Positions 5,068 to 29,035 of a stretch of DNA of 32,975 nt are shown here, in pieces. The position numbers and the translations under genes were made by a program. Location of the stretch: assembly GCF_030012175.1 (NCBI RefSeq), contig NZ_JASCXW010000021.1, positions 1-32,975 on the forward strand, in the 5' to 3' direction. How positions within the stretch are numbered: position 1 is the stretch's first letter; each line of letters begins with the position of its first letter. The DNA comes from Peloplasma aerotolerans. Lineage in GTDB: Bacteria; Bacillota_I; Bacilli_A; Acholeplasmatales; Acholeplasmataceae. The notes beneath the pieces were generated by a model. The model made no database searches, had not been told where the DNA came from, and worked only from the letters and a program-made list of their open reading frames with translations.

Positions 5068-5081
5068 TGCAAACGGTTTCA
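5068..5081 (+). promoter_or_regulatory. LacI-family/cre-type operator upstream of operon A
   Basis: TGCAAACGGTTTCA fits the palindromic LacI-family pattern TGNAANCGNTTNCA at every fixed position. It lies just upstream of the extended -10 at 5093-5101, covering where a -35 would be, so a bound repressor would block RNA polymerase. Nearly identical sites sit upstream of operon D (18595) and between operons E and F (29022). The LacI-family regulator encoded at 26205-27185 is the obvious candidate to bind it; a CcpA-like protein would recognise a similar sequence. Confidence 0.75.
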
Positions 5082-8390: not shown

Positions 8391-11321
8391 TTAACCTCCT
8401 ATCGGTGAATCATCTAATGTGATATTAAATGATTGTTTTTCTACAAACAATGTGTAGAAGTAATGTTTAACTGGTTCATAAGGTGCAAGAACTGCAACTG
8501 TAATCGTATAACGACCAGGTACATTGACATCATGATAACTTGAGTAGTAAATCTCAGCCTCAGGATTGTGAATTGTTAAGTTAACTTCTGGGTTAAATGT
8601 ATCACCTTTTTGAATGGTGAAAGTGTTATTAATGAGTTCAACTGCTTCACCCATAACTTCAACTAAAATAATGGATGTATTTTTAGGTGCGAAAACCAAA
8701 TCTGTAACCAACTCTAAACCGTTTGTATCATGTGATTCGAAATAGGTTAACATTTTATATGTTTTACCACTTTCGAGTTCTAGCATCGCAAGACTTCCTG
8801 TTGGATTGCTGCTGTGTAATACAATAATTTCTGGTGTGTGACTATTTCCAGCTATTCTGTACGCAATTGCTTGACTACCTGCATTTGTATCAAGGAAGGT
8901 CAAACGATTCTTAATTTCATCAGCATTGTTGATTCTAAAGTGATCATAAGTGTTCCTAATTTGAATCAGAGCTTTATAATACTCGAAGACATCATTATAT
9001 TGAGCCTTTCTGTCCCAGCGCAGCTGATTGACAATATCAGGAGATTCATAAGAGTTATGATCAAAACCACCAGATGGAAGTGGCTTGCTTCGCATAAATT
9101 CGACACCAGCATGTAAGAATGCCACACCTTGTGAAGTTAATATCAGTGCATTTGACTGAATTTGCATAGGTTTAGCATTGCTAATCGAAATGCCAGTTAA
9201 ACGTAATTTATCATAAAGCGTATTGTTGTCATGCGCTGTCACATAATTGATCGTTTGGTTTGGATTTAAATGCCATTCATTCATTTGAGTGATTCCAGGA
9301 AATTCAATACCACCAACGATACCATACATTAAACCTTGATAAATGTAATCATTTGTATTGCCTTGTACCCAACCTCTTTCAGTAGCTTGGAATACAGACC
9401 CTTTAACTGCATCTCTTGTATAGTCATTAAATGCACCTACAAGATTCATGTTTTTAATGTTATCTTTACCAGCAGCTAATGAGTTTGGTAAAGGTGTTGA
9501 TCCACCTGCCCAGGGTTCACCAAAAACAATAATGGTTGGATCAATAGCTTCTAATAAAGCTTGGATCTGATTCATGGTTTCAACATCATGAAGTGCCATT
9601 AAGTCAAATCTAAAACCAGATAAATTATATTCAGTTGCCCAAAACTCGATTGAGTCAAGCATAAACTTTCTCATCATCGAACGTTCTGATGCGGTTTCAT
9701 TACCTGTTCCAGAACCATTACTAAAACCACCAGAAGGTGTTAATCTGTGATAATAACCAGGAACGATTTTATGGAAGTTTGATGTTGCTGATTCACCTGT
9801 ATGGTTATATACAACATCCATAATCACGCGAATATCATAATCATGAAGCGCTTGAACGACTTGTTTAAACTCATTGATTCTTACACGACCATCAAATGGA
9901 TTGGTTGCGTATGAACCTTCTAGAGTATTAAAGTGATAAGGCATATATCCCCAGTTGAAGAGGTTAGTATAATTAGGGTTGTTCGCAACTTGAACTTCAT
10001 CGACATAACCAAAATCAAAGATTGGAAGTAATTGTACTGCATTAACACCTAATTCTTTAATATGATCTAATCCTGTAGTTACTGTAACACCTGAACCTGT
10101 ATATGTTGTTCCAGTTTCTGTTAATCCAAGGAACTTACCACGATTTGCTTCAGTTCCATTCCATGAACTGTGTGTTGTTAAATCTCTAACGTGTAACTCA
10201 TAGATGATATAATCTGTTAAATTTGTAATTGTGCTTGGACGATCATTATAACTCCAGCCATCTGGATTGGTTTCATCGAATTTGACAATCATACCACGTT
10301 GTCCGTTTGCTCCAGTTGAGTATGCATAAGGATCGGTTACTTCATGGACTTCACTGTTGTTAGTCACCGTGAATGTATAATATTTAAAATCATAGTCACC
10401 AGTGAGTTTAACTTCCCAAGCACCGTTTTCTATCTTATACATTGCCTCTGTTTGATAAGGTGTCAATTCATTATTTGGTTGTCCTTGATCGTTATAATTT
10501 GGATGTCCTTGATGATAAAGGTTTAAGGTAACACTTTGGCTTAATGGTGCCCACAACCTAAAGATTGTAAATTCATTATCGAAACTTACACCAAGTTCAC
10601 CTTCATATGTGTATAAATCTTCAAAATCAGGAGTGTCGTATATATTTTGAAGTGAAACAGGAAATTCTATTTCTCTATCTTCATTAAATAGAACTTTAAG
10701 TGTATAAGATTTAGAGATATCTACATTAGGGACTGTTAATAATAGATCTTTAGTGGTTGCTGTTCCACTTGTGACCATTGTTCCATTTTCATATACTTCA
10801 TAACCCAATTCAGGTATATGAGTTAATTTAGCCGATATACGTTTTTGAGTATCAAAAGCTGCAGATAATACTTTTTCTCTATAATCAGGAATATTGTTTG
10901 CCAAATCAGCAGATGAAGTACCGATACTTAAGTCTTGCTCAACAAAATATGCATGTGCAACACCTGAGATGACCTCAACTTCTTCAAGATCTATAAAACG
11001 GTCTCCACCGACTTCTCGATATCCATCCCATCCACCTTGTTTAATAATAATGCCTAACATCGTAGAATTTGGATATTGGTCTGTTAAATCGATTTCATAC
11101 CAGACACCAAATTCATCTTTATTTTCAACACTAAAATTATGTTGAATTCCACCAGTGGATACAGGCTCATGTTGCCAGACCCACATGTTAAAATTTGAGT
11201 AATTATCATCATAGCGATAATAGTGAACAATGAGTTTTGTTGGCAACTCATTCGCCATGGTTGTTATTCCCAGACTAAAGACTGAGAACATCAAAAGAAT
11301 TATTGCAATTATTTTTTTCAT
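8391..11321 (-). CDS. pulA: Secreted type I pullulanase with CBM41 (GH13_14-like)
   Basis: This 976-residue protein has a cleavable signal peptide (likely cut after TMA, residue 23), no lipobox and no C-terminal anchor. Domain order: starch/pullulan-binding CBM41 (about 27-133, with aromatic residues Tyr34/35, Trp47, Trp49, Trp98), an Ig-like linker domain (about 145-215), a CBM48-type domain (about 225-340), a GH13 barrel, and beta-rich C-terminal domains, the last like a cell-surface Ig module. FNWGYMPYHF corresponds to the YNWGYDP pullulanase signature. Catalytic residues are Asp573 (FRFDLMALHD), Glu602 (FGEPWAGG) and Asp698 (TAHDNNT). It cleaves alpha-1,6 branches in pullulan, amylopectin or glycogen outside the cell. 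It heads operon B, with AGGAGG before its ATG, and is divergent from the starch-binding/MalEFG operon. Confidence 0.93.
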   Translation of the reverse strand: MKKIIAIILLMFSVFSLGITTMANELPTKLIVHYYRYDDNYSNFNMWVWQHEPVSTGGIQHNFSVENKDEFGVWYEIDLTDQYPNSTMLGIIIKQGGWDGYREVGGDRFIDLEEVEVISGVAHAYFVEQDLSIGTSSADLANNIPDYREKVLSAAFDTQKRISAKLTHIPELGYEVYENGTMVTSGTATTKDLLLTVPNVDISKSYTLKVLFNEDREIEFPVSLQNIYDTPDFEDLYTYEGELGVSFDNEFTIFRLWAPLSQSVTLNLYHQGHPNYNDQGQPNNELTPYQTEAMYKIENGAWEVKLTGDYDFKYYTFTVTNNSEVHEVTDPYAYSTGANGQRGMIVKFDETNPDGWSYNDRPSTITNLTDYIIYELHVRDLTTHSSWNGTEANRGKFLGLTETGTTYTGSGVTVTTGLDHIKELGVNAVQLLPIFDFGYVDEVQVANNPNYTNLFNWGYMPYHFNTLEGSYATNPFDGRVRINEFKQVVQALHDYDIRVIMDVVYNHTGESATSNFHKIVPGYYHRLTPSGGFSNGSGTGNETASERSMMRKFMLDSIEFWATEYNLSGFRFDLMALHDVETMNQIQALLEAIDPTIIVFGEPWAGGSTPLPNSLAAGKDNIKNMNLVGAFNDYTRDAVKGSVFQATERGWVQGNTNDYIYQGLMYGIVGGIEFPGITQMNEWHLNPNQTINYVTAHDNNTLYDKLRLTGISISNAKPMQIQSNALILTSQGVAFLHAGVEFMRSKPLPSGGFDHNSYESPDIVNQLRWDRKAQYNDVFEYYKALIQIRNTYDHFRINNADEIKNRLTFLDTNAGSQAIAYRIAGNSHTPEIIVLHSSNPTGSLAMLELESGKTYKMLTYFESHDTNGLELVTDLVFAPKNTSIILVEVMGEAVELINNTFTIQKGDTFNPEVNLTIHNPEAEIYYSSYHDVNVPGRYTITVAVLAPYEPVKHYFYTLFVEKQSFNITLDDSPIGG

Positions 11322-11343
11322 ATTTGAACCTCCTACATTAAAT

Positions 11344-11352
11344 AATATATCA
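11344..11352 (-). promoter_or_regulatory. Extended -10 promoter of operon B
   Basis: Minus-strand TGATATATT, five of six to TATAAT with TGN upstream. Initiation would fall near 11337, directly upstream of the AGGAGG at 11329-11334, giving a very short leader. The -35 position is only A/T-rich. Confidence 0.5.
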
Positions 11353-11395
11353 TGGAGACACTAAAATAATAAAAATAATGATAGCGATTTCAAAA

Positions 11396-11409
11396 AGAGA
11401 ACGGTTGCA
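11396..11409 (+). promoter_or_regulatory. Weak LacI-type operator half in the operon B/C divergent region
   Basis: AGAGAACGGTTGCA keeps AACGGTTGCA (CG core plus a full right half) of the TGNAANCGNTTNCA pattern but has two mismatches in the left half. It lies about 65 bases upstream of the predicted pullulanase start and 21 bases from the second site at 11424, roughly two helical turns (28 bases centre to centre). Confidence 0.45.
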
Positions 11410-11423
11410 CAATTTATCATTGA

Positions 11424-11437
11424 CTAAAGCGTTTACA
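11424..11437 (+). promoter_or_regulatory. LacI/cre-type operator upstream of operon C
   Basis: CTAAAGCGTTTACA matches TGNAANCGNTTNCA except for its first two bases; AAAGCGTTTACA is a typical cre/LacI-family core. It overlaps the likely -35 (TTTACA, 11432-11437) of the operon C promoter, so binding should affect transcription of the starch-binding protein and MalEFG genes. Confidence 0.55.
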
Positions 11438-11461
11438 TTTCTCATATTTATATGATAAGAT
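11432..11461 (+). promoter_or_regulatory. Promoter of operon C
   Basis: A TTTACA -35 (11432-11437) is spaced 18 bases from TAAGAT (11456-11461), which is preceded by TGA, making an extended -10. Transcription from about 11468 leaves a leader of roughly 45 bases with AGGAGG before the ATG at 11513. TTGACT at 11420-11425 with CATATT at 11443-11448 is an alternative pairing. Confidence 0.5.
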
Positions 11462-11512
11462 AACCGTGTCAAGGATGAATTGGCATTCTTTAAACAAATA
11501 GGAGGAAAAAAA

Positions 11513-13339
11513 ATGAAGAAAGTGCTATTCGCATTGCTCCTCATATCATCAGTATTCGCATTTTTTGGCTTAAACGCGAAAGCTGCAGGTACGGGGAATT
11601 TAGTTGTACACTTCCAAGCATGGGATGAAGCAAGTTATGATAATCTTGGATCACATGCATGGGGCTCAACAGCTGCTGGAAAACTAGCAAGTGGTACAGA
11701 CGACTTTGGTGTATATTTCGAATTTAATGATTTAGAAATCGATACTGAAATCGGATTTATTGCAGTTACATGGATTGGTACCGAAGGTCCAAATTGGGAT
11801 AAAAAATTAACCGGTGACGTTATGATCGGTGATGATGTTGTTCAAGAAGGTAAAACAACTCATGTATTCGTATTCCAAGGTGCAAACGGTGCACAATATT
11901 TAGTTGCAGATCCAGACAACCATTCAGTAATCGTTGTTTACTATGATGCTGCTGGCACCTATGAAGAAAACTTAGGTATCCATCATTGGGGATGGACAGT
12001 TGCTGGTCCTGAATGGGCAAGTCCTGCTGAAGTATTTAATACAGTAGGTAAATCTCCATCAGATATGGAAGTTAAAGGTTTTGCTTTAGCTTCAGAAGAT
12101 ATCACTGGTGCTGGTTTCTTAATTTATGCTGGTGGCGATGATAGTAAGAAGACTGGCGACATCAAAAATGATACTGGATTCTTCCAAACTCATACAGATG
12201 GAGCATATGACATTTTATATGTTGTAAGCGCTGGCGATGGCCATACGTCAAATAGCAATGTTTATACTGATCCAGCATTATTTGCTGAAGATGCATTCTC
12301 ATTTGGATTAGTTCCATTTAGCAATGCTGATAAATCAGGAACATTTGCAGTTGACCCAACAACAATTTTCGTTAAAACAAGTTCACCTGTTGCATCACCA
12401 TATCCACTTGCAGCGGATAAAGATGCAGCAAGAGCAGAAATCGAAAATTGGTTTACAGTTCGTGAAATTACTGGCGTAGACACTTATGGTGATCCATTAG
12501 CAATTGAAAGAGTAGACTTTGCAACAACAAATACGACATTAAATCAATTTGTTATTATTCTTGAAAACGCAATGGATAATACAAAAGAGTATGAAATATT
12601 CTTTGATATGAATTATCCAGAAGAACCACTTGATGTAGCAAAAGATGTTACAGTAACTATTAATGTTACAGTTCCTGCTAATACACCTGCTGAAGCAGTT
12701 ATTAGTCTTGCAGGTTCAATACCTGGATCTGGGTGGAACCCAGAATCAGAAGATTTTGTTGCAACTCAAGTTGGAGACACATTAGTGTATTCAATAACAT
12801 TTGATGTTGAAGTAATTGATGCGTACACAACTTATGAATACAAATGGACTAGAGGTTCATGGGCAACAGAAGAATTTGTTGCGTCTAACCGTCCATTAGT
12901 GATTCCTAATAATGTTGACTCAATCGTATTTGATGATGTTATCCAAGCTTGGGCAGACATTGATGCACCAGAAAACAAATATGATGCACCAGTTCGTACA
13001 GCAATGGTTAACTTAAAAGCTTCTATGGTTTTAGATCTAGATACAGAAGCTCCTGAAATTACATTTATTTCACCTACAGGTATTGTAGGAAAAGATCCTG
13101 CTGAAAGAATTATTGAAGTCACTTGGGGACAACCTTTCAATCAATTATTATTCCCAAGATATAGAGCAAACGATGACCGTGATGGTGACTTAACACCTTT
13201 CATCTTTGTACCTAAAGGACAATCATCCGTATTAGATACAAGAACTGAAGGCGATTATACTATCATGTTACGTGTTGTTGATAAATGGGGCAACGTCGCT
13301 GAAGAGACTTTTATCTTTAGAGTCGTTAAGTCTAATTAA
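11513..13339 (+). CDS. Secreted multi-domain starch-binding protein, no catalytic domain
   Basis: The start at 11513 is fixed by AGGAGG seven bases upstream and an immediate signal peptide (cut after AKA, residue 24); an in-frame ATG at 11480 lacks both. The 608-residue protein has five beta domains: two tandem CBM41-like modules (about 28-133 and 138-252, each starting like LVVHFQAW or VIVVYYDA and containing HAWG/HHWGW), a pullulanase-type linker Ig domain (about 282-370), a CBM20-like starch-binding domain (about 376-484, with YEYKWTRGSW and SNRPL), and a C-terminal DUF5011-like Ig domain (about 510-605). No GH13 barrel or catalytic residues are present. It opens the operon with MalE, MalF and MalG and presumably collects starch or maltodextrin at the cell surface. 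It has no lipobox, sortase motif or C-terminal helix, so how it stays near the cell is unclear. Domain calls are by eye. Confidence 0.78.
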   Translation: MKKVLFALLLISSVFAFFGLNAKAAGTGNLVVHFQAWDEASYDNLGSHAWGSTAAGKLASGTDDFGVYFEFNDLEIDTEIGFIAVTWIGTEGPNWDKKLTGDVMIGDDVVQEGKTTHVFVFQGANGAQYLVADPDNHSVIVVYYDAAGTYEENLGIHHWGWTVAGPEWASPAEVFNTVGKSPSDMEVKGFALASEDITGAGFLIYAGGDDSKKTGDIKNDTGFFQTHTDGAYDILYVVSAGDGHTSNSNVYTDPALFAEDAFSFGLVPFSNADKSGTFAVDPTTIFVKTSSPVASPYPLAADKDAARAEIENWFTVREITGVDTYGDPLAIERVDFATTNTTLNQFVIILENAMDNTKEYEIFFDMNYPEEPLDVAKDVTVTINVTVPANTPAEAVISLAGSIPGSGWNPESEDFVATQVGDTLVYSITFDVEVIDAYTTYEYKWTRGSWATEEFVASNRPLVIPNNVDSIVFDDVIQAWADIDAPENKYDAPVRTAMVNLKASMVLDLDTEAPEITFISPTGIVGKDPAERIIEVTWGQPFNQLLFPRYRANDDRDGDLTPFIFVPKGQSSVLDTRTEGDYTIMLRVVDKWGNVAEETFIFRVVKSN

Positions 13340-13351
13340 GGAGGCGCGCAC

Positions 13352-14731
13352 ATGAAAAAACTATTAACTTTATTATTAATTTCATTGGCTGTGTTTTCAT
13401 TAGCAGCATGTAAATCAACAGAAGAACCTACTGATCCTGATCAAACGCAAGATCCAGCGAACCTTGGTGAAAGAATTGATTTTGGTGACCGTTTAGTTCA
13501 AAAGTCAAGTATTCGTGTTTGGATAGATGATGAAGAAGGCGAATATATGGAAGCAGTCATTGCAGAATTTAACAAGTTGCATCCAAATATCGTTGTTGTT
13601 CACCAACATATGGGTACTGTAGATGCTCGTGAATTGTTAAAAACATTTGGTCCTTCAGGAAATGGTGCAGATGTATTCCAATTCCCACATGACCACTTAG
13701 CAAAAGCAGTTTCTGAAGATTTAGTTTATGCTTTACCAGCTTCAACTCAGACTTTATTAGCACAACGTTCTCATGAACTAGGATTAAGTATAGCTACATT
13801 GAGTTATGACGAAGTTGCTAAATCATTTAATCCAAATAGTCCAAATGCAGTTGAAAGACTATATGCAGTACCAATGTCAATTGAATCTATTGGTTTATAT
13901 TACAATACAGATTTAGTAGATACACCTGCAACAACATTTGAACAATTAATTACTGAAGCACAAACATGGAATGCAGCTCTAGCAGCTGATAATTCAGGTC
14001 AAACTAATGCACAAAAAGGTTGGTATTACTTAGGTAATTCAAGCCACTGGGCAGACAGTTACTTTATGCAACCATTCTATTCAGCATTTGGATTCACTCC
14101 ATTTGGTGAAGATCTAAATGATCCTTCAGCAGTTGGATTTGAAGATGCAGTTCCTGCTCTTAACTGGTTAAGAACTACATTAAAACCTGTAACAACAGGT
14201 ACAGGTAACCATAATTCAGTTACAGCTGGTTCTAACTTTGAAGAAGGACGCATTCCTTATATCATTACTGGTCCTTGGAGTAACGAAGCTTATAAGAGTA
14301 AAGGATTAAATTACTCAATCGCTCCAATGCCAACAATTAATGGAAATGATACACAAACATTTGCTGGTGCTCAAATGGCAGCTGTTTACAAATATTCAGA
14401 AAATGCAGCTGACGCTATTAAATTTGTTGAATTCTTAAGCAGCGACATCGCTATGAAGCTCATGTATGAAATGAAAGGTAAATTACCTGCATTAACAAAT
14501 GATCTTCTTGCTACAATCGATGGTGTTGCTGATGACCAACTTATGATGGCAATGGCACAACAACTTGAAACATCTATTCCAATGCCAACAATTCCAGAAG
14601 TACAATACTACTGGGGTCCAGGTGAATCAATGTTACAAGCTATTTGGAACACAGATAAAACAGCTTTATTAGCTGCTCAAGAAGCAGAAGCTGGATATCG
14701 TGCATTAGCTGGTTTAGGTTCAGGTTCATAG
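13352..14731 (+). CDS. malE: Maltose/maltodextrin-binding lipoprotein MalE
   Basis: This 459-residue protein has a lipoprotein signal (SLAAC, Cys20), an acidic/Thr-Pro linker, and a family 1 extracellular solute-binding fold. IRVWIDDEEGEYMEAVIAEF at the start of the mature domain and the GRIPYIITGPWSNEAY region (the GPW of MalE-type sugar binders) support a maltodextrin-type ligand; several Trp and Tyr residues near the C-terminus (YYWGPGESM) could stack on sugars. It delivers oligosaccharides to the MalFG permease encoded next. A strong AAGGAGG lies before its start, 12 bases after the starch-binding protein. A GC-rich stem-loop separates it from malF, probably allowing more MalE than permease to be made. 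The ligand (maltose versus longer maltodextrins) is inferred from context. Confidence 0.88.
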   Translation: MKKLLTLLLISLAVFSLAACKSTEEPTDPDQTQDPANLGERIDFGDRLVQKSSIRVWIDDEEGEYMEAVIAEFNKLHPNIVVVHQHMGTVDARELLKTFGPSGNGADVFQFPHDHLAKAVSEDLVYALPASTQTLLAQRSHELGLSIATLSYDEVAKSFNPNSPNAVERLYAVPMSIESIGLYYNTDLVDTPATTFEQLITEAQTWNAALAADNSGQTNAQKGWYYLGNSSHWADSYFMQPFYSAFGFTPFGEDLNDPSAVGFEDAVPALNWLRTTLKPVTTGTGNHNSVTAGSNFEEGRIPYIITGPWSNEAYKSKGLNYSIAPMPTINGNDTQTFAGAQMAAVYKYSENAADAIKFVEFLSSDIAMKLMYEMKGKLPALTNDLLATIDGVADDQLMMAMAQQLETSIPMPTIPEVQYYWGPGESMLQAIWNTDKTALLAAQEAEAGYRALAGLGSGS

Positions 14732-14768
14732 TATTTTAAAAGTTATTTAATTTAACTAACTTTGTGGA

Positions 14769-14792
14769 GGCGGCAAGATTTCATTTGCCGCC
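14769..14792 (+). other. GC-rich stem-loop between malE and malF
   Basis: GGCGGCAA and TTGCCGCC form a perfect eight-pair stem with an eight-base loop in an otherwise very A/T-rich gap of 89 bases. No T-run follows, so it is not a standard terminator. It probably protects the malE transcript from 3' decay or slows polymerase, adjusting the MalE to MalFG ratio, as the intercistronic structure does in the E. coli malEFG operon. An AUGGAGG ribosome binding region for malF follows at 14809-14817. Confidence 0.65.
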
Positions 14793-14820
14793 CTCATTTA
14801 GTTATTACATGGAGGTTTAA

Positions 14821-17181
14821 ATGAAAGTATTTAGCATCATAAAAGCAATTGCCTCTGGACTTGTTTGGGGACTTGGCCAAGTTCTCAATAAACAATTTCT
14901 TAAAGCTTTTTTCTTTTTCTTCTTTTTTGCACTGTTCATTTCAATTGAATTATTTACAAGTAAATATTTTGAAGAAACCGATGCAATGGACAAGATTGTA
15001 GGAAAAGATTTTAGTGATCAATATGTTCAACTTGGTTTTTTAGCTGATTATAATTATAATAAATTTTTAAATAATGGTGTAGGTTATGCAGATTTTGAAG
15101 ATTTTTTACTAGAAATTGATGGAGAAGAAAATCTAACAGAAGCATTACTCATCCAATTTATTGCTAGTGATTTAAAAAAGAACAATCCAATCGTTTATAT
15201 AAATAGCTTAACTAATGTCATTATTCCAGCAGAAGAGTTCGAAACCGAAGGTAGAGAACACTTATTTAGAAGAGAGACTTTGTATCTTGATGATCAAGGC
15301 ATCTATTATGTAGAAAGAGATGTTACACTTGCTACTGGATCTAATCAAAAACAATACGTTGAAACGACGCTATTGACAGGCGAATTAAATGAAGATAATA
15401 TCAGATTCAATCGTGAAGGACTCGTTGTTTACCGCAAAACAGGTGAAATATACCGATATCAAGGTGTGTTATATCTAAGAGTTATCAACGATGGTTCTTT
15501 TGAATATGTCAATCTCTTAACTGAAGCAACAATTACCATTCAACCCGGTATTATTGTACCTGTTGTTCAAGTTATAGGACCGCTTTATCGTGTTAATAAT
15601 ATGATATTTGAATATATCGAACCAGGATTAATTTATAATTCTGTTCGTTTACAATATAAATCAACACCATTTCTAGATACATTTAGACAGTCAATGTTAT
15701 ATACATATACACAACCAGGTAATGCATTTACTGATAATGATTATACACGTCTTATGTTAAAAGTTTATTTTGAACTTAACCCATCAATTCGTGATCATTT
15801 CTTAGATGAATATAACGATTTTTTCTATGATCGTGCAGGTATGTTTGTCAGGGGTTATTGGGGAGTTATTACACTAGGAACCACGAGTAAAATAAACTAC
15901 ACAGGTCATATGTCATTAAATAATGCTTTAATTGGGACATCAACGTCACCTTATTCTTTAGCAACGCATATTCGCCCATTAGAAGAATTACCATTTCGTG
16001 GACATGTCTCGATGATGGTCTTACTTGAAGGGTTAATTGCTGTGATTTTATCGTTTTTCTTTTATATTCTAATGTTTTGGTCAGTAAGCGATGCTTATAA
16101 AACAGCAGAGAAAAAAAGAAGAAAAGAAAAAGTTTTAGGTGATCGAAAATATTTTGCAAATGTTTATGAAAACAGTTTTGAATATATCGTTTTATCACCA
16201 GCTGTATTTGTATTAGGTTTTATATCCATTATGCCAATCGTGTTTGGTTTTGTGATTGCCTTTACGAATATTGCGGGTAACGAATCCATGTTAGAAACGT
16301 TTGATTGGGTCGGCCTAAGAAACTTCTTTGCTTTATTTAATTTCACATCCGGTTTAGGTGCATCATTTGGACGAGCATTTTGGAGAGTATTAGGATGGAC
16401 GGTTATTTGGGCAGTACTATCTACATTTACGGTATTCTTTGGTGGATTCTTCCAAGCATTAGTTCTTAACAGTGAAAAAGTCGTATTTAGAAAATTATGG
16501 AGAACTGTTTTAATTCTCCCATGGGCAATACCAGCATTGTTATCTCAAATGGTATTTTCTGTAATGTTTAATGAATTTGGTTTTATCAACCAGTTTTTAC
16601 AAGACATAGGTGTTTATCCAATCTTACAAAATTTAGGTATGCTTGGTGTCAATTTTAATACACTAGAAGGTTTTGCTAGGTATTTATATTTAGGTCAAGA
16701 TAATATTCAATGGTTTTCAAATCCATTTAATCCTGTTTTCGTTAGAGCAACACTTGTTGTCGTTAATATTTGGTTAGGGTTCCCATATTTTATGGCACTA
16801 ATGACAGGCGTTATGACAGCCATAGATGCAACCTTATACGAAGCCGCCGACATCGACGGAGCAACCAAATTCCAAAAAATTATTAAAATTACGATGCCTT
16901 TGGTATTATATTCTACAGCACCGATATTAATTATGACTTTCTCAGGAAACTTTAATAACTTCGGGGTGATTTACTTTATCACGGGTGGTGGACCAAATAC
17001 AGGTTTAGCCAGTCGAGGGTTTGCTGGTGATACAGATATTCTTATTTCATGGATGTATAAATTAACTGTTGAATACTCTATATACAACATGGCATCTGTA
17101 TTCTCAGTATTGATTTTCTTGTTTGTAGGCTCATTAACCGCATGGAACCTATCTAAAACAAGAGCTTTCCAGGAGGACTAA
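14821..17181 (+). CDS. malF: Maltodextrin ABC permease MalF with large N-terminal extension
   Basis: This 786-residue protein is a MalF-type permease fused to an unusual N-terminal region. One membrane helix (about 26-46, including seven consecutive Phe) is followed by about 350 residues of hydrophilic, beta-strand-rich sequence expected outside the membrane, then a second helix (about 399-421) and a Lys/Arg-rich cytoplasmic stretch. The permease core follows from about residue 450, with the EAA loop at about 673-692 (EAADIDGATKFQKIIKITMP), where the ATPase docks. E. coli MalF also has a large periplasmic loop that contacts MalE, but between TM3 and TM4 of the core; here the insert precedes the core. 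It could capture MalE or the starch-binding protein. The downstream malG starts three bases after this stop. Confidence 0.9.
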   Translation: MKVFSIIKAIASGLVWGLGQVLNKQFLKAFFFFFFFALFISIELFTSKYFEETDAMDKIVGKDFSDQYVQLGFLADYNYNKFLNNGVGYADFEDFLLEIDGEENLTEALLIQFIASDLKKNNPIVYINSLTNVIIPAEEFETEGREHLFRRETLYLDDQGIYYVERDVTLATGSNQKQYVETTLLTGELNEDNIRFNREGLVVYRKTGEIYRYQGVLYLRVINDGSFEYVNLLTEATITIQPGIIVPVVQVIGPLYRVNNMIFEYIEPGLIYNSVRLQYKSTPFLDTFRQSMLYTYTQPGNAFTDNDYTRLMLKVYFELNPSIRDHFLDEYNDFFYDRAGMFVRGYWGVITLGTTSKINYTGHMSLNNALIGTSTSPYSLATHIRPLEELPFRGHVSMMVLLEGLIAVILSFFFYILMFWSVSDAYKTAEKKRRKEKVLGDRKYFANVYENSFEYIVLSPAVFVLGFISIMPIVFGFVIAFTNIAGNESMLETFDWVGLRNFFALFNFTSGLGASFGRAFWRVLGWTVIWAVLSTFTVFFGGFFQALVLNSEKVVFRKLWRTVLILPWAIPALLSQMVFSVMFNEFGFINQFLQDIGVYPILQNLGMLGVNFNTLEGFARYLYLGQDNIQWFSNPFNPVFVRATLVVVNIWLGFPYFMALMTGVMTAIDATLYEAADIDGATKFQKIIKITMPLVLYSTAPILIMTFSGNFNNFGVIYFITGGGPNTGLASRGFAGDTDILISWMYKLTVEYSIYNMASVFSVLIFLFVGSLTAWNLSKTRAFQED

Positions 17182-17184
17182 GAT

Positions 17185-18567
17185 ATGACAATTCTACATA
17201 TATTACTCATATATTTTGGAATCTTAATCTTATTGGTCAACCAGGGAACTGTTTACGATTATGCACAGAAAAAAGGTTATGAAGGTATTAAATATCGTTT
17301 GATTGCTTTAATTCCAGTTTTCGGATTTAAATATTTCCAAAAAAATAAACCTTTAGTTAAAGTAACAGATCGAGAACTTAAGTATTTAATAAGTCCGGAA
17401 ATTCTTGGCAAAAGAATTATGTTGTATGGACTACTATTGTTAGGTGCATTTATTGTTATTATTCCAACATCTGTGATTATTTATTTATCATTATCAAATA
17501 ATCTATTACAAACTTTATTTACCGTGTTCGTCATTATATTAGCATTCTTATTACATCAAGGTACAGTTGTTGAATACGCAAGTAAAAAGGGTTATGAAGG
17601 CATTAAACCAGGCTTGATGGGGTTAATTCCAGTTTATGGTTTCTACTATTACAAGAAAATTCCTAAGCGAAGAAATGCAACCAAAGAATCCATGAGAGAT
17701 ATCTTTAAATTCTCAAGTATGCTTTCAAGGTTACTGATTTACGCTGAAATCACTTTTGTTGCAGTGATTGTTATTGTACCAGTTGTTTATATCTTTGGTA
17801 TGGCATTCGCGAATGTTAGAAGTGATGTTCCAAATCAAATTTGGCCATCAAACCCAAGTTTTGGAGCATTTACATATCTCTTTGAAGAAACGAACTTTAC
17901 AAGATGGTATACAAATACATTAACGATTGCATTAATCAATATGCTCGGTGGTACTTTATTAATTACTGGTGCAGCTTATGTCTTTGCTCGCTTTAGCTTT
18001 AAAGGTAAGAAAGCTGGACTACTCACCATTTTAGTATTACAAGCATTTCCTTCATTTATGGGATTAATCGCCATGTATGTCTTATTCTGGAAGTTCAACC
18101 TTCTAGGAAGACCAACATACTTAAGTATTTTGTATATTGGTGGAAGTATTCCAGGTAACTTATGGCTTATTAAAGGATTCTTATCACAAATTCCTAAAGA
18201 CTTAGATGAATCAGCAATGATTGATGGAGCAAATAAACTTCAAATATTCTTTAAAATCATTCTACCTTTATCTGTTCCGATCTTAACGTTTGTTGCTGTA
18301 TCGATGTTTATGGGACCATGGATGGATTACTTGTTACCAGGTTATCTACTCAGGTTTGCACCTGCTGGTGCACCACCTGATTATGATATATCAAGACAAT
18401 GGACACTTGCTGTCGGTTTATTCAGGTTTATTAACGATTTAAACTATCAACATTATTCAGCATTTGCCGCAGGTGCAATTCTTGTAGGTTTACCCATTAC
18501 AGCACTTTATATGGCATTCCAAAAATACCTTATCGAAGGTATCATGGCTGGCGCTACAAAAGGGTGA
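17185..18567 (+). CDS. malG: Maltodextrin ABC permease MalG with duplicated N-terminal module
   Basis: This 460-residue protein is about 180 residues longer than a usual MalG. The C-terminal 280 residues are a standard permease with an EAA loop (about 341-360, ESAMIDGANKLQIFFKIILP). The extra N-terminal part holds two copies of a helix-plus-motif unit: residues 19-53 and 124-158, both reading QGTV-x-x-YA-x-KKGYEGIK and then LIPV-x-GF (23 of 35 identical by eye), separated by two further hydrophobic segments. The repeat recalls small Gram-positive membrane modules such as DUF5684, whose function is unknown. It partners MalF to form the channel; no ATPase gene follows. The stop codon lies within the operon terminator stem. 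AGGAGG before its ATG overlaps the end of malF. Confidence 0.88.
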   Translation: MTILHILLIYFGILILLVNQGTVYDYAQKKGYEGIKYRLIALIPVFGFKYFQKNKPLVKVTDRELKYLISPEILGKRIMLYGLLLLGAFIVIIPTSVIIYLSLSNNLLQTLFTVFVIILAFLLHQGTVVEYASKKGYEGIKPGLMGLIPVYGFYYYKKIPKRRNATKESMRDIFKFSSMLSRLLIYAEITFVAVIVIVPVVYIFGMAFANVRSDVPNQIWPSNPSFGAFTYLFEETNFTRWYTNTLTIALINMLGGTLLITGAAYVFARFSFKGKKAGLLTILVLQAFPSFMGLIAMYVLFWKFNLLGRPTYLSILYIGGSIPGNLWLIKGFLSQIPKDLDESAMIDGANKLQIFFKIILPLSVPILTFVAVSMFMGPWMDYLLPGYLLRFAPAGAPPDYDISRQWTLAVGLFRFINDLNYQHYSAFAAGAILVGLPITALYMAFQKYLIEGIMAGATKG

Positions 18568-18594: not shown

Positions 18595-18608
18595 TGAAAA
18601 CGGTTACA
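18595..18608 (+). promoter_or_regulatory. LacI-family/cre-type operator upstream of operon D
   Basis: TGAAAACGGTTACA fits TGNAANCGNTTNCA at every fixed position. It lies 12 bases after the operon C terminator and is centred about 45 bases upstream of the predicted transcription start of the phosphorylase operon. Confidence 0.75.
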
Positions 18609-26204: not shown

Positions 26205-27185
26205 TTATTTAGATTTTGTTGTTTCTCTTTCAATTAATTTAACATCAATAATATCATGTAAACTGTCTAGTTCAACCCCGCGGATTAGTCTTGTTAAGTT
26301 AATAAATGATTGTTTACCCATAAAATTAACAGACTGATGAACAGTTGTTATAGATGGTGTCACCCAATTGCTGTAAGGTGTGTTGTCGTATCCGATTAAT
26401 GACACGTCTTGTGGCACTTTTTTGCCTAATTTTTGCAATATATTTAAAGTTGCGAAGGCAAGTGTATCCGAAAATGTAAAGATACCATCGACGTGAGGGT
26501 TGTTCTTTAGGATTTCTTCAATCAGTTTAAAATCAGGAAAAAGTAAATCGAAATCGAAGATATCGACAAACAAATCATGTTTCTTACTCTCATTTAAAAA
26601 GCCTATTGTACGTTCCATGGTTGTTAATAGAAATGATGGTCCCCTAAATAAAATAATATTTTTAGCACCTGTTTCAATCAGTTTAGTAGCTGCTAGTCCT
26701 CCACCTTTGACGTTGTCAGAAGTAATTGATGGTATATTTTCATCTAAAATATGGTCAACTGTAACAACAGGAATATTTAATTCAGCCAATTTGTCACGAT
26801 TCGAAAAGTTTGATGCGATAATTAAACCTTCAATATTATATGATTCAAAAAACTGCAAGTATTCAAGTTCACGATCAGGATCATCTTGAGTATGGCAAAA
26901 CATGATTTTATAGCCATATGCTGAAGCTTGTGATTCAATGCCTTCTAATAACTCACCATAAAAAGACGGACCTATATGAGGTACGATAACCCCGATAATT
27001 TTAGAACTACGATTGGTTAGGCTTCTTGCCAATTGATTAGGAATAAAGCCTAAGTCTTTAATGATCTTATTGACGAGTACTTTAGTTTCTTCGTGGACAT
27101 AACCTTTTTGATTAATAACACGAGAGACAGTTGAAACACTGACATTGGCTTTTTTGGCCACATCACGAATGGTCGGTTTCATCAT
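26205..27185 (-). CDS. malR: LacI-family transcriptional regulator (MalR-like)
   Basis: This 326-residue regulator has a classic LacI N-terminus: TIRDVAKKANVSVSTVSRVI (helix-turn-helix, about 5-24) and PNQLARSL (hinge helix, about 49-56), then a periplasmic-binding-protein-like sensor domain (about 63-320). Arrangement inside the maltodextrin cluster suggests it senses a maltose-type ligand and represses, as MalR does in Gram-positive bacteria. Perfect or near LacI-type operators precede operons A, D and the E/F divergent region, the last just upstream of its own operon, so autoregulation is likely. Its start overlaps the neopullulanase stop by four bases (ATGA), with AAGGGG upstream. A CcpA-like role cannot be excluded, but the sensor domain does not look like a close CcpA. 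The gene symbol is a context-based proposal. Confidence 0.82.
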   Translation of the reverse strand: MMKPTIRDVAKKANVSVSTVSRVINQKGYVHEETKVLVNKIIKDLGFIPNQLARSLTNRSSKIIGVIVPHIGPSFYGELLEGIESQASAYGYKIMFCHTQDDPDRELEYLQFFESYNIEGLIIASNFSNRDKLAELNIPVVTVDHILDENIPSITSDNVKGGGLAATKLIETGAKNIILFRGPSFLLTTMERTIGFLNESKKHDLFVDIFDFDLLFPDFKLIEEILKNNPHVDGIFTFSDTLAFATLNILQKLGKKVPQDVSLIGYDNTPYSNWVTPSITTVHQSVNFMGKQSFINLTRLIRGVELDSLHDIIDVKLIERETTKSK

Positions 27186-29021: not shown

Positions 29022-29035
29022 TGAAACCGCTAACA
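29022..29035 (+). promoter_or_regulatory. LacI-type operator between operons E and F
   Basis: TGAAACCGCTAACA fits TGNAANCGNTTNCA with one mismatch. It is centred about 43-45 bases upstream of both predicted divergent start points, so one bound dimer could act on both the neopullulanase/regulator operon and the alpha-glucosidase/MalQ operon. Confidence 0.65.

Follow-up and report, generated by a model that had tools for sequence, protein, structure and literature searches.

A predicted secreted, non-catalytic alpha-glucan-binding protein encoded ahead of malEFG in Peloplasma aerotolerans and its relatives

Why should a gene cluster for maltodextrin uptake open with a gene for a secreted protein that carries starch-binding-type modules and no enzyme? 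The question is raised by a 32,975-nucleotide stretch of the Peloplasma aerotolerans genome (contig NZ_JASCXW010000021.1, positions 1 to 32,975; hereafter, the window). The gene in question (11513..13339, forward strand), whose ATG at position 11513 follows an AGGAGG sequence, encodes a 608-residue product predicted to be secreted, non-catalytic and alpha-glucan-binding, which we refer to as the capture protein. No earlier description of it was found in the literature searched. Residues 1–24 (11513..11584, forward strand) form the Sec signal peptide noted in the preliminary description; it ends in an AxA signal peptidase I type site (NAKA/AG) that is kept in most of 15 aligned relatives. A lipobox is absent from the sequence and from the alignment of relatives, and the signal region contains no Cys. 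The mature part comprises five domains, in this order: a pair of CBM41 type, one Ig-like domain, one with the CBM20 fold and a PF16403-type Ig tail. Scans with Pfam and NCBIfam profiles detected no glycoside hydrolase or other catalytic domain and no dockerin. The reported absence of a GH13 barrel was thus upheld: there was no GH13 match, and the modelled domains are beta-rich with no barrel among them. Since the gene has been kept at more than 40 loci and its dN/dS against the nearest relative (locus L031) is 0.19, a chance open reading frame is excluded; the same ratio indicates that the gene is under purifying selection.

A phmmer search with the whole capture protein against PDB sequences returned zero matches. 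An AlphaFold2 model was built on an alignment of 30 homologues (pLDDT 85.7, pTM 0.61); as the model is multi-domain, individual folds were read from it and the relative placement of domains was left out of the interpretation. Structure prediction returned CBM41 and CBM20 folds rather than unrelated ones, in line with the alpha-glucan-binding-type folds claimed earlier.

Domain 1 (residues 25–132; 11585..11908, forward strand) belongs to CBM41 by the Pfam PUD profile, which matches residues 30–125 with an E value of 4.8e-10 (40.6 bits, cut-off 25) and also matches 26 of the 30 homologues. The assignment is backed by a match of the domain profile to 2j71 and by the modelled fold, which aligned with the CBM41 module of Thermotoga maritima PulA (2j72) with a Z score of 10.4 and an rmsd of 2.5 over 95 aligned positions. 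Residue counts in the 30 homologues revealed that W50, W95, K98 and D102 are nearly invariant; from the alignment and general knowledge, these are the putative aromatic stacking residues and the putative Lys/Asp of the glucan site. Position 48, which in the W-x-W pair of CBM41 is the leading Trp, is His in the capture protein; 12 of the 27 sequences that extend over this position have Trp. Domain 2 (residues 133–266; 11909..12310, forward strand) is a divergent second CBM41-type module: it contains a second, weaker PUD stretch (E 0.003), and W159, W161, Y205, K212, K213 and D216 are invariant or nearly so in the 30 homologues. Taken together, domains 1 and 2 matched the streptococcal tandem CBM41 structure 2j43 with a Foldseek E value of 2.8e-7, the best Foldseek match obtained, so the two CBM41-like modules proposed earlier were both recovered. 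The tandem recalls the N-terminal CBM41 pair of the streptococcal pullulanases SpuA and PulA (2j43, 2j44), whose modules sit within the enzyme, whereas those of the capture protein are on a separate protein. Within the P. aerotolerans genome, PUD was found only in the capture gene and in the adjoining pullulanase.

Domain 3 (residues 267–372; 12311..12628, forward strand) was modelled as an Ig-like beta domain with a helix, placed as a connector. It had been described as a pullulanase-type linker, a label that drew weak support. The pullulanase SAP of group B Streptococcus (3faw) was among the VIA-align matches (Z 9.0), but Ig domains of the S-layer proteins Sap and SbsC were matched equally (Z also about 9), and the domain 3 profile failed to align with the linker of the neighbouring pullulanase by hhalign. 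We keep the pullulanase-linker label as a tentative possibility. Profile searches of PDB sequences with either domain 2 or domain 3 returned no meaningful match.

Domain 4 (residues 374–479; 12632..12949, forward strand), an optional cassette, has the fold of CBM20. In VIA-align, residues 376–479 aligned with many CBM20 chains, including those of CGTase, glucoamylase and STBD1, with Z scores of 9–11. CBM20 site 1 is formed by a Trp-Lys-Trp triad (PMC9920598), to which, by alignment, W408, K444 and W450 of domain 4 correspond; these three residues and N459 are invariant in all 19 homologues that have the domain. Domain 4 thus has both the fold and the site 1 triad in common with the modules of CGTase, glucoamylase and STBD1. 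It differs from them in a shorter hairpin between the Lys and the second Trp (6 residues vs 12 in A. niger glucoamylase numbering) and in scoring below the Pfam CBM_20 cut-off: no such match was found in the capture protein, and two homologues reached E 0.0016 at best. A sub-threshold match to X25_BaPul_like was seen at residues 406–473 (E 0.019, 15.5 bits vs a cut-off of 27). Comparison by hhalign with small CBM20 proteins gave 95.8% with a wide profile and 1.9% with a narrow one. The CBM20 assignment rests on fold and hhalign because the profile search of PDB sequences with domain 4 yielded a single match, to a chitin-binding protein, which we judged spurious. With the site 1 residues invariant and the fold recovered, the earlier reading of a CBM20-like domain holds.

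The architecture varies among relatives. Homologues of about 480–580 residues lack domain 4; the 723-residue version of Acholeplasma granularum has a CBM20-like domain inserted elsewhere and an atypical Ig domain; the protein of locus L097 carries its CBM20-like domain at the N terminus; and proteins of families f23 and f27 (800–840 residues) have duplicated PUD regions. Judged from these sequences, the CBM20 cassette is one that has been lost, relocated or swapped among lineages. Between the otherwise very similar genes of L042 and L043, domain 4 with its linker differs at pS 0.56 and pN 0.28, with flanks at pS 0.03–0.14, which looks like cassette exchange by recombination. CBM20-like domains were also observed outside this family. 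A 1600-residue lipoprotein on contig 37 of genome G002 (L073:854-5656, reverse strand) has five to six repeats related to domain 4 and, by eye, an esterase-like domain, and its shorter relatives (L104:3090-4487 and L107) combine one repeat with the same esterase-like domain; from its sequence, the large protein appears to be a further surface protein that binds alpha-glucan. A different family of the order supplied two small cases: stand-alone CBM20 proteins of 116 and 108 residues (L111 and L112) that have no signal peptide and are possibly intracellular glycogen-targeting proteins.

The capture gene stands at the head of malEFG, as claimed. A gap of 12 nt containing GGAGG separates it from a gene for a MalE-like lipoprotein with the lipobox LAAC (13352..14731), which is followed by genes for a MalF-like permease with a large N-terminal ectodomain (14821..17181) and a MalG-like permease (17185..18567), all identified by profile scans and all on the forward strand; MalK-type ATPases are encoded elsewhere in the genome. 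A GC-rich inverted repeat, noticed by eye between malE and malF (14732–14820), possibly sets malE expression above that of malFG. On the reverse strand, head-to-head with the capture gene, lies the gene for a secreted type I pullulanase (8391..11321) with PUD, CBM48 and GH13 domains and an Ig-type C-terminal tail.

Of the 61 nearest genomes searched, 30 have a homologue of the capture protein; the gene is not universal in this set, and many of the negative genomes are incomplete or fragmented. A GTDB scan retrieved 31 loci. Their labels are Acholeplasmataceae, Acholeplasma or Tenericutes in almost every case, with a few MAGs labelled just "Bacillota". Among the loci are those of Tenericutes bacterium MO-XQ and the cultured A. 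granularum ATCC 19168 (L057), so that the search for the same gene beside malEFG in Acholeplasma, proposed in the preliminary description, was positive. In all 29 GTDB loci with downstream sequence, malE lies directly downstream, and malF and malG follow wherever the contig is long enough. A CBM41-CBM48-GH13 pullulanase is arranged head-to-head in 23 of the 25 loci with upstream sequence; in L057 and L059, the capture gene is present with malEFG and without an adjoining pulA. A wider search of 392 genomes of the phylum, together with a scan for PUD in 395 genomes of the class, added 13 loci from other families and divergent members of the order (L097–L100, L144–L150, L154 and L155). At every one of these a PUD protein directly precedes malE-malF-malG, and Pfam scans of ten of the 13 proteins revealed no enzyme domains. 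Rejected candidates were the DUF5011-only matches of family f11 (L101, L102, L105 and L106), which proved to be unrelated, and two PUD proteins, at L103 and L151, that lie in other gene contexts.

Alignment of relatives delimited a 191-bp divergent promoter region common to pulA and the capture gene (11322..11512). It houses three LacI/CcpA-type operators (11379–11392, 11400–11409 and 11428–11437) that are kept in relatives, and a -10 element, TAAGAT, that ends at 11461. Almost all of the aligned relatives keep the promoter elements TAGCGATTTCA, AACGGTTGCA and AAAGCGTTTACA with few changes. Across the window, 29 copies of the core ANCGNTWNCA were counted vs 5.7 expected; intergenic copies also precede the RDD/GH13 genes, glgP and the LacI divergon. 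The intergenic LacI/CcpA-type sites lie at 5068–5081, 11379–11437, 18595–18608 and 29022–29035. By their sequence, these operators mark out a putative maltodextrin regulon that spans the window, and the LacI-family protein encoded at 26205..27185 (reverse strand) is a candidate repressor that would regulate the divergent promoter.

Domain 5 (residues 507–608; 13031..13336, forward strand), the proposed Ig-like tail, was classed as PF16403-type: residues 534–598 match with an E value of 5.3e-6 and 26.8 bits, 0.2 under the Pfam cut-off of 27, and 25 of the 30 homologues match at E of 0.01 or lower (43.6 bits in L099). This is the most conserved domain, with a mean pairwise identity of 0.73 vs 0.53–0.62 for domains 1–4. 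Against L031 its pS is 0.12, and that of the other domains is 0.29–0.55; on these values, the high conservation may in part be nucleotide-level and stem from recombination. The neighbouring pullulanase ends in a related tail (hhalign 80%, E 1.4e-5). The idea that the tail of the capture protein is a sorting signal used throughout the genome was rejected: its profile retrieved only itself in the genome, in which looser PF16403 domains are common.

No membrane helix or sorting signal was found in the capture protein, and proteins of the window clade stop right after the Ig tail. Distant homologues whose ends were inspected finish in a transmembrane helix with basic residues behind it and, as a rule, a Cys ahead of it, and most pullulanases of distant loci end likewise. 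Such Cys-TM-RRK-like tails are frequent on the capture proteins and pullulanases of the 13 further loci and are possibly an undescribed C-terminal sorting signal of mollicute relatives; scored as LPXTG- or MYXO-CTERM-like signals, the distant C-termini were mostly below threshold, with one above. In L042 and L047, the pullulanase has a transmembrane anchor and the capture protein does not; in the window, both proteins lack an anchor and both end in the related Ig tails, so the end of the pullulanase varies within one clade. Probably the ancestral capture protein had a C-terminal membrane helix as its tether, which the window clade has lost; loss is favoured over gain because the anchor is widely spread. 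Anchoring by LPXTG and sortase was rejected for the window clade, as the tail motif is absent and no sortase was found in 21 genomes. PBP transpeptidase is absent from the P. aerotolerans genome, as is sortase, which agrees with the suggestion of a probably wall-less cell. The Ig tail may retain the capture protein at the cell surface through protein-protein contact; alternatively, with neither lipobox nor transmembrane helix nor sorting signal to hold it, it could diffuse away.

We conclude, with a probability of about 0.72, that the gene encodes a Sec-exported non-catalytic protein that captures alpha-glucan, with starch as the predicted ligand, and serves the pullulanase and MalEFG. Dedicated starch capture, the function proposed in the preliminary description, is the best-supported reading because the binding residues are kept, an enzyme is absent and the gene has a fixed place before MalEFG over several families, usually beside a pullulanase. 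The two CBM41 domains and the CBM20 domain would bind extracellular starch, glycogen or long chains of maltodextrin and keep them near the pullulanase, which would debranch and trim the captured glucan. Maltodextrins would then be imported by the MalE lipoprotein and MalFG, with the ATPase supplied from elsewhere in the genome, and the operators in the single divergent promoter would control capture protein, pullulanase and transporter jointly. Cotranscription with malEFG, like cooperation of the capture protein with PulA and MalEFG, is what we infer from this arrangement.

One may instead suppose that the capture protein chiefly targets or assembles with the pullulanase, the Ig tails associating and the CBMs bringing the enzyme to starch, and that the link to the transporter is one of coregulation only. 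The common divergent promoter, the head-to-head order, the related tails and the replacement of the transmembrane anchor by a tail on pullulanases of the same clade all speak for such a partnership. We nevertheless regard it as rather unlikely, since the gene is tied more strictly to malE than to pulA (29/29 vs 23/25), L057 and L059 keep malEFG without an adjoining pulA, and the pullulanase carries a CBM41 of its own. More speculative is an extension of the capture reading, in which the Ig tails of both proteins replaced the lost anchors and dock on the MalF ectodomain or on MalE, so that a single surface complex would bind, debranch and import starch as a monoderm, wall-less counterpart of Sus; we consider this doubtful. 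The MalF ectodomain (approximately residues 50–340, made of helices and a beta stack) is unusually large and was modelled with a pLDDT of about 88, vs less than 50 for the transmembrane part. When a docking domain was sought with this model, Foldseek retrieved MalF-type permeases only, with no confident PDB match for the ectodomain.

The AxA site and the lack of an anchor in the clade would also fit a truly secreted, diffusible starch disruptor that makes granules or amylose helices accessible to exo-enzymes. Such a public good is less expected beside a dedicated transporter, and the more distant homologues are anchored, which makes this explanation improbable. A slightly poorer prospect is a role in attachment and not nutrition, with the protein serving as adhesin or matrix component on starch granules or on the glycogen or exopolysaccharide of the cell or its neighbours: the multi-domain, surface-type architecture with an Ig tail and the membrane anchors of homologues suit it, but the fixed place in a locus of maltodextrin uptake and degradation and the conserved operators do not. 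Finally, a decayed, functionless pullulanase that lost its catalytic barrel, to which the shared CBM41 domains might point, is scarcely credible given the more than 40 loci, the invariant binding residues, the purifying selection and the coexisting intact pullulanase.

SusE and SusF of Bacteroides thetaiotaomicron are non-enzymatic multi-domain surface starch binders encoded with uptake and amylase genes, and Sas20 of the Ruminococcus bromii amylosome is a non-catalytic starch-binding protein of a Firmicute (PMC9112005). The likeness to SusE/SusF drawn earlier stands as an analogy, that of a separate non-enzymatic multi-domain binder encoded with uptake genes, with no homology claimed; membership does not stand, as the capture protein has an AxA site in place of a lipobox and its X25 score is 15.5 bits vs 27. 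SusE and SusF are surface lipoproteins with X25 domains that act with SusC, SusD and SusG at the outer membrane; unlike them, the capture protein combines CBM41- and CBM20-type modules, has no lipobox and belongs to a monoderm cell with an ABC transporter and a pullulanase. Sas20, which has an X25 pair and a unique domain, docks into the amylosome by a dockerin, whereas the capture protein is without dockerin, is built from other modules and is tied to a transporter operon. By analogy, then, it is comparable to SusE/SusF and to Sas20 and is a member of neither group. According to PMC10826348, homologues of those binders are lacking in C. butyricum, and other non-enzymatic factors are still to be identified.

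Non-enzymatic starch binders are already known from Bacteroides outer membranes and from the R. bromii amylosome. If our reading is true, the capture protein would be a third independent solution, coupled to an ABC transporter and present in several families of single-membrane, apparently wall-less bacteria. Concrete targets are available in A. granularum ATCC 19168, which is in culture, and in Tenericutes bacterium MO-XQ. A further question is how a cell that has no wall would keep hold of a secreted protein once the anchor of that protein has been lost. The separation of starch capture from starch cutting would then be a recurrent strategy.
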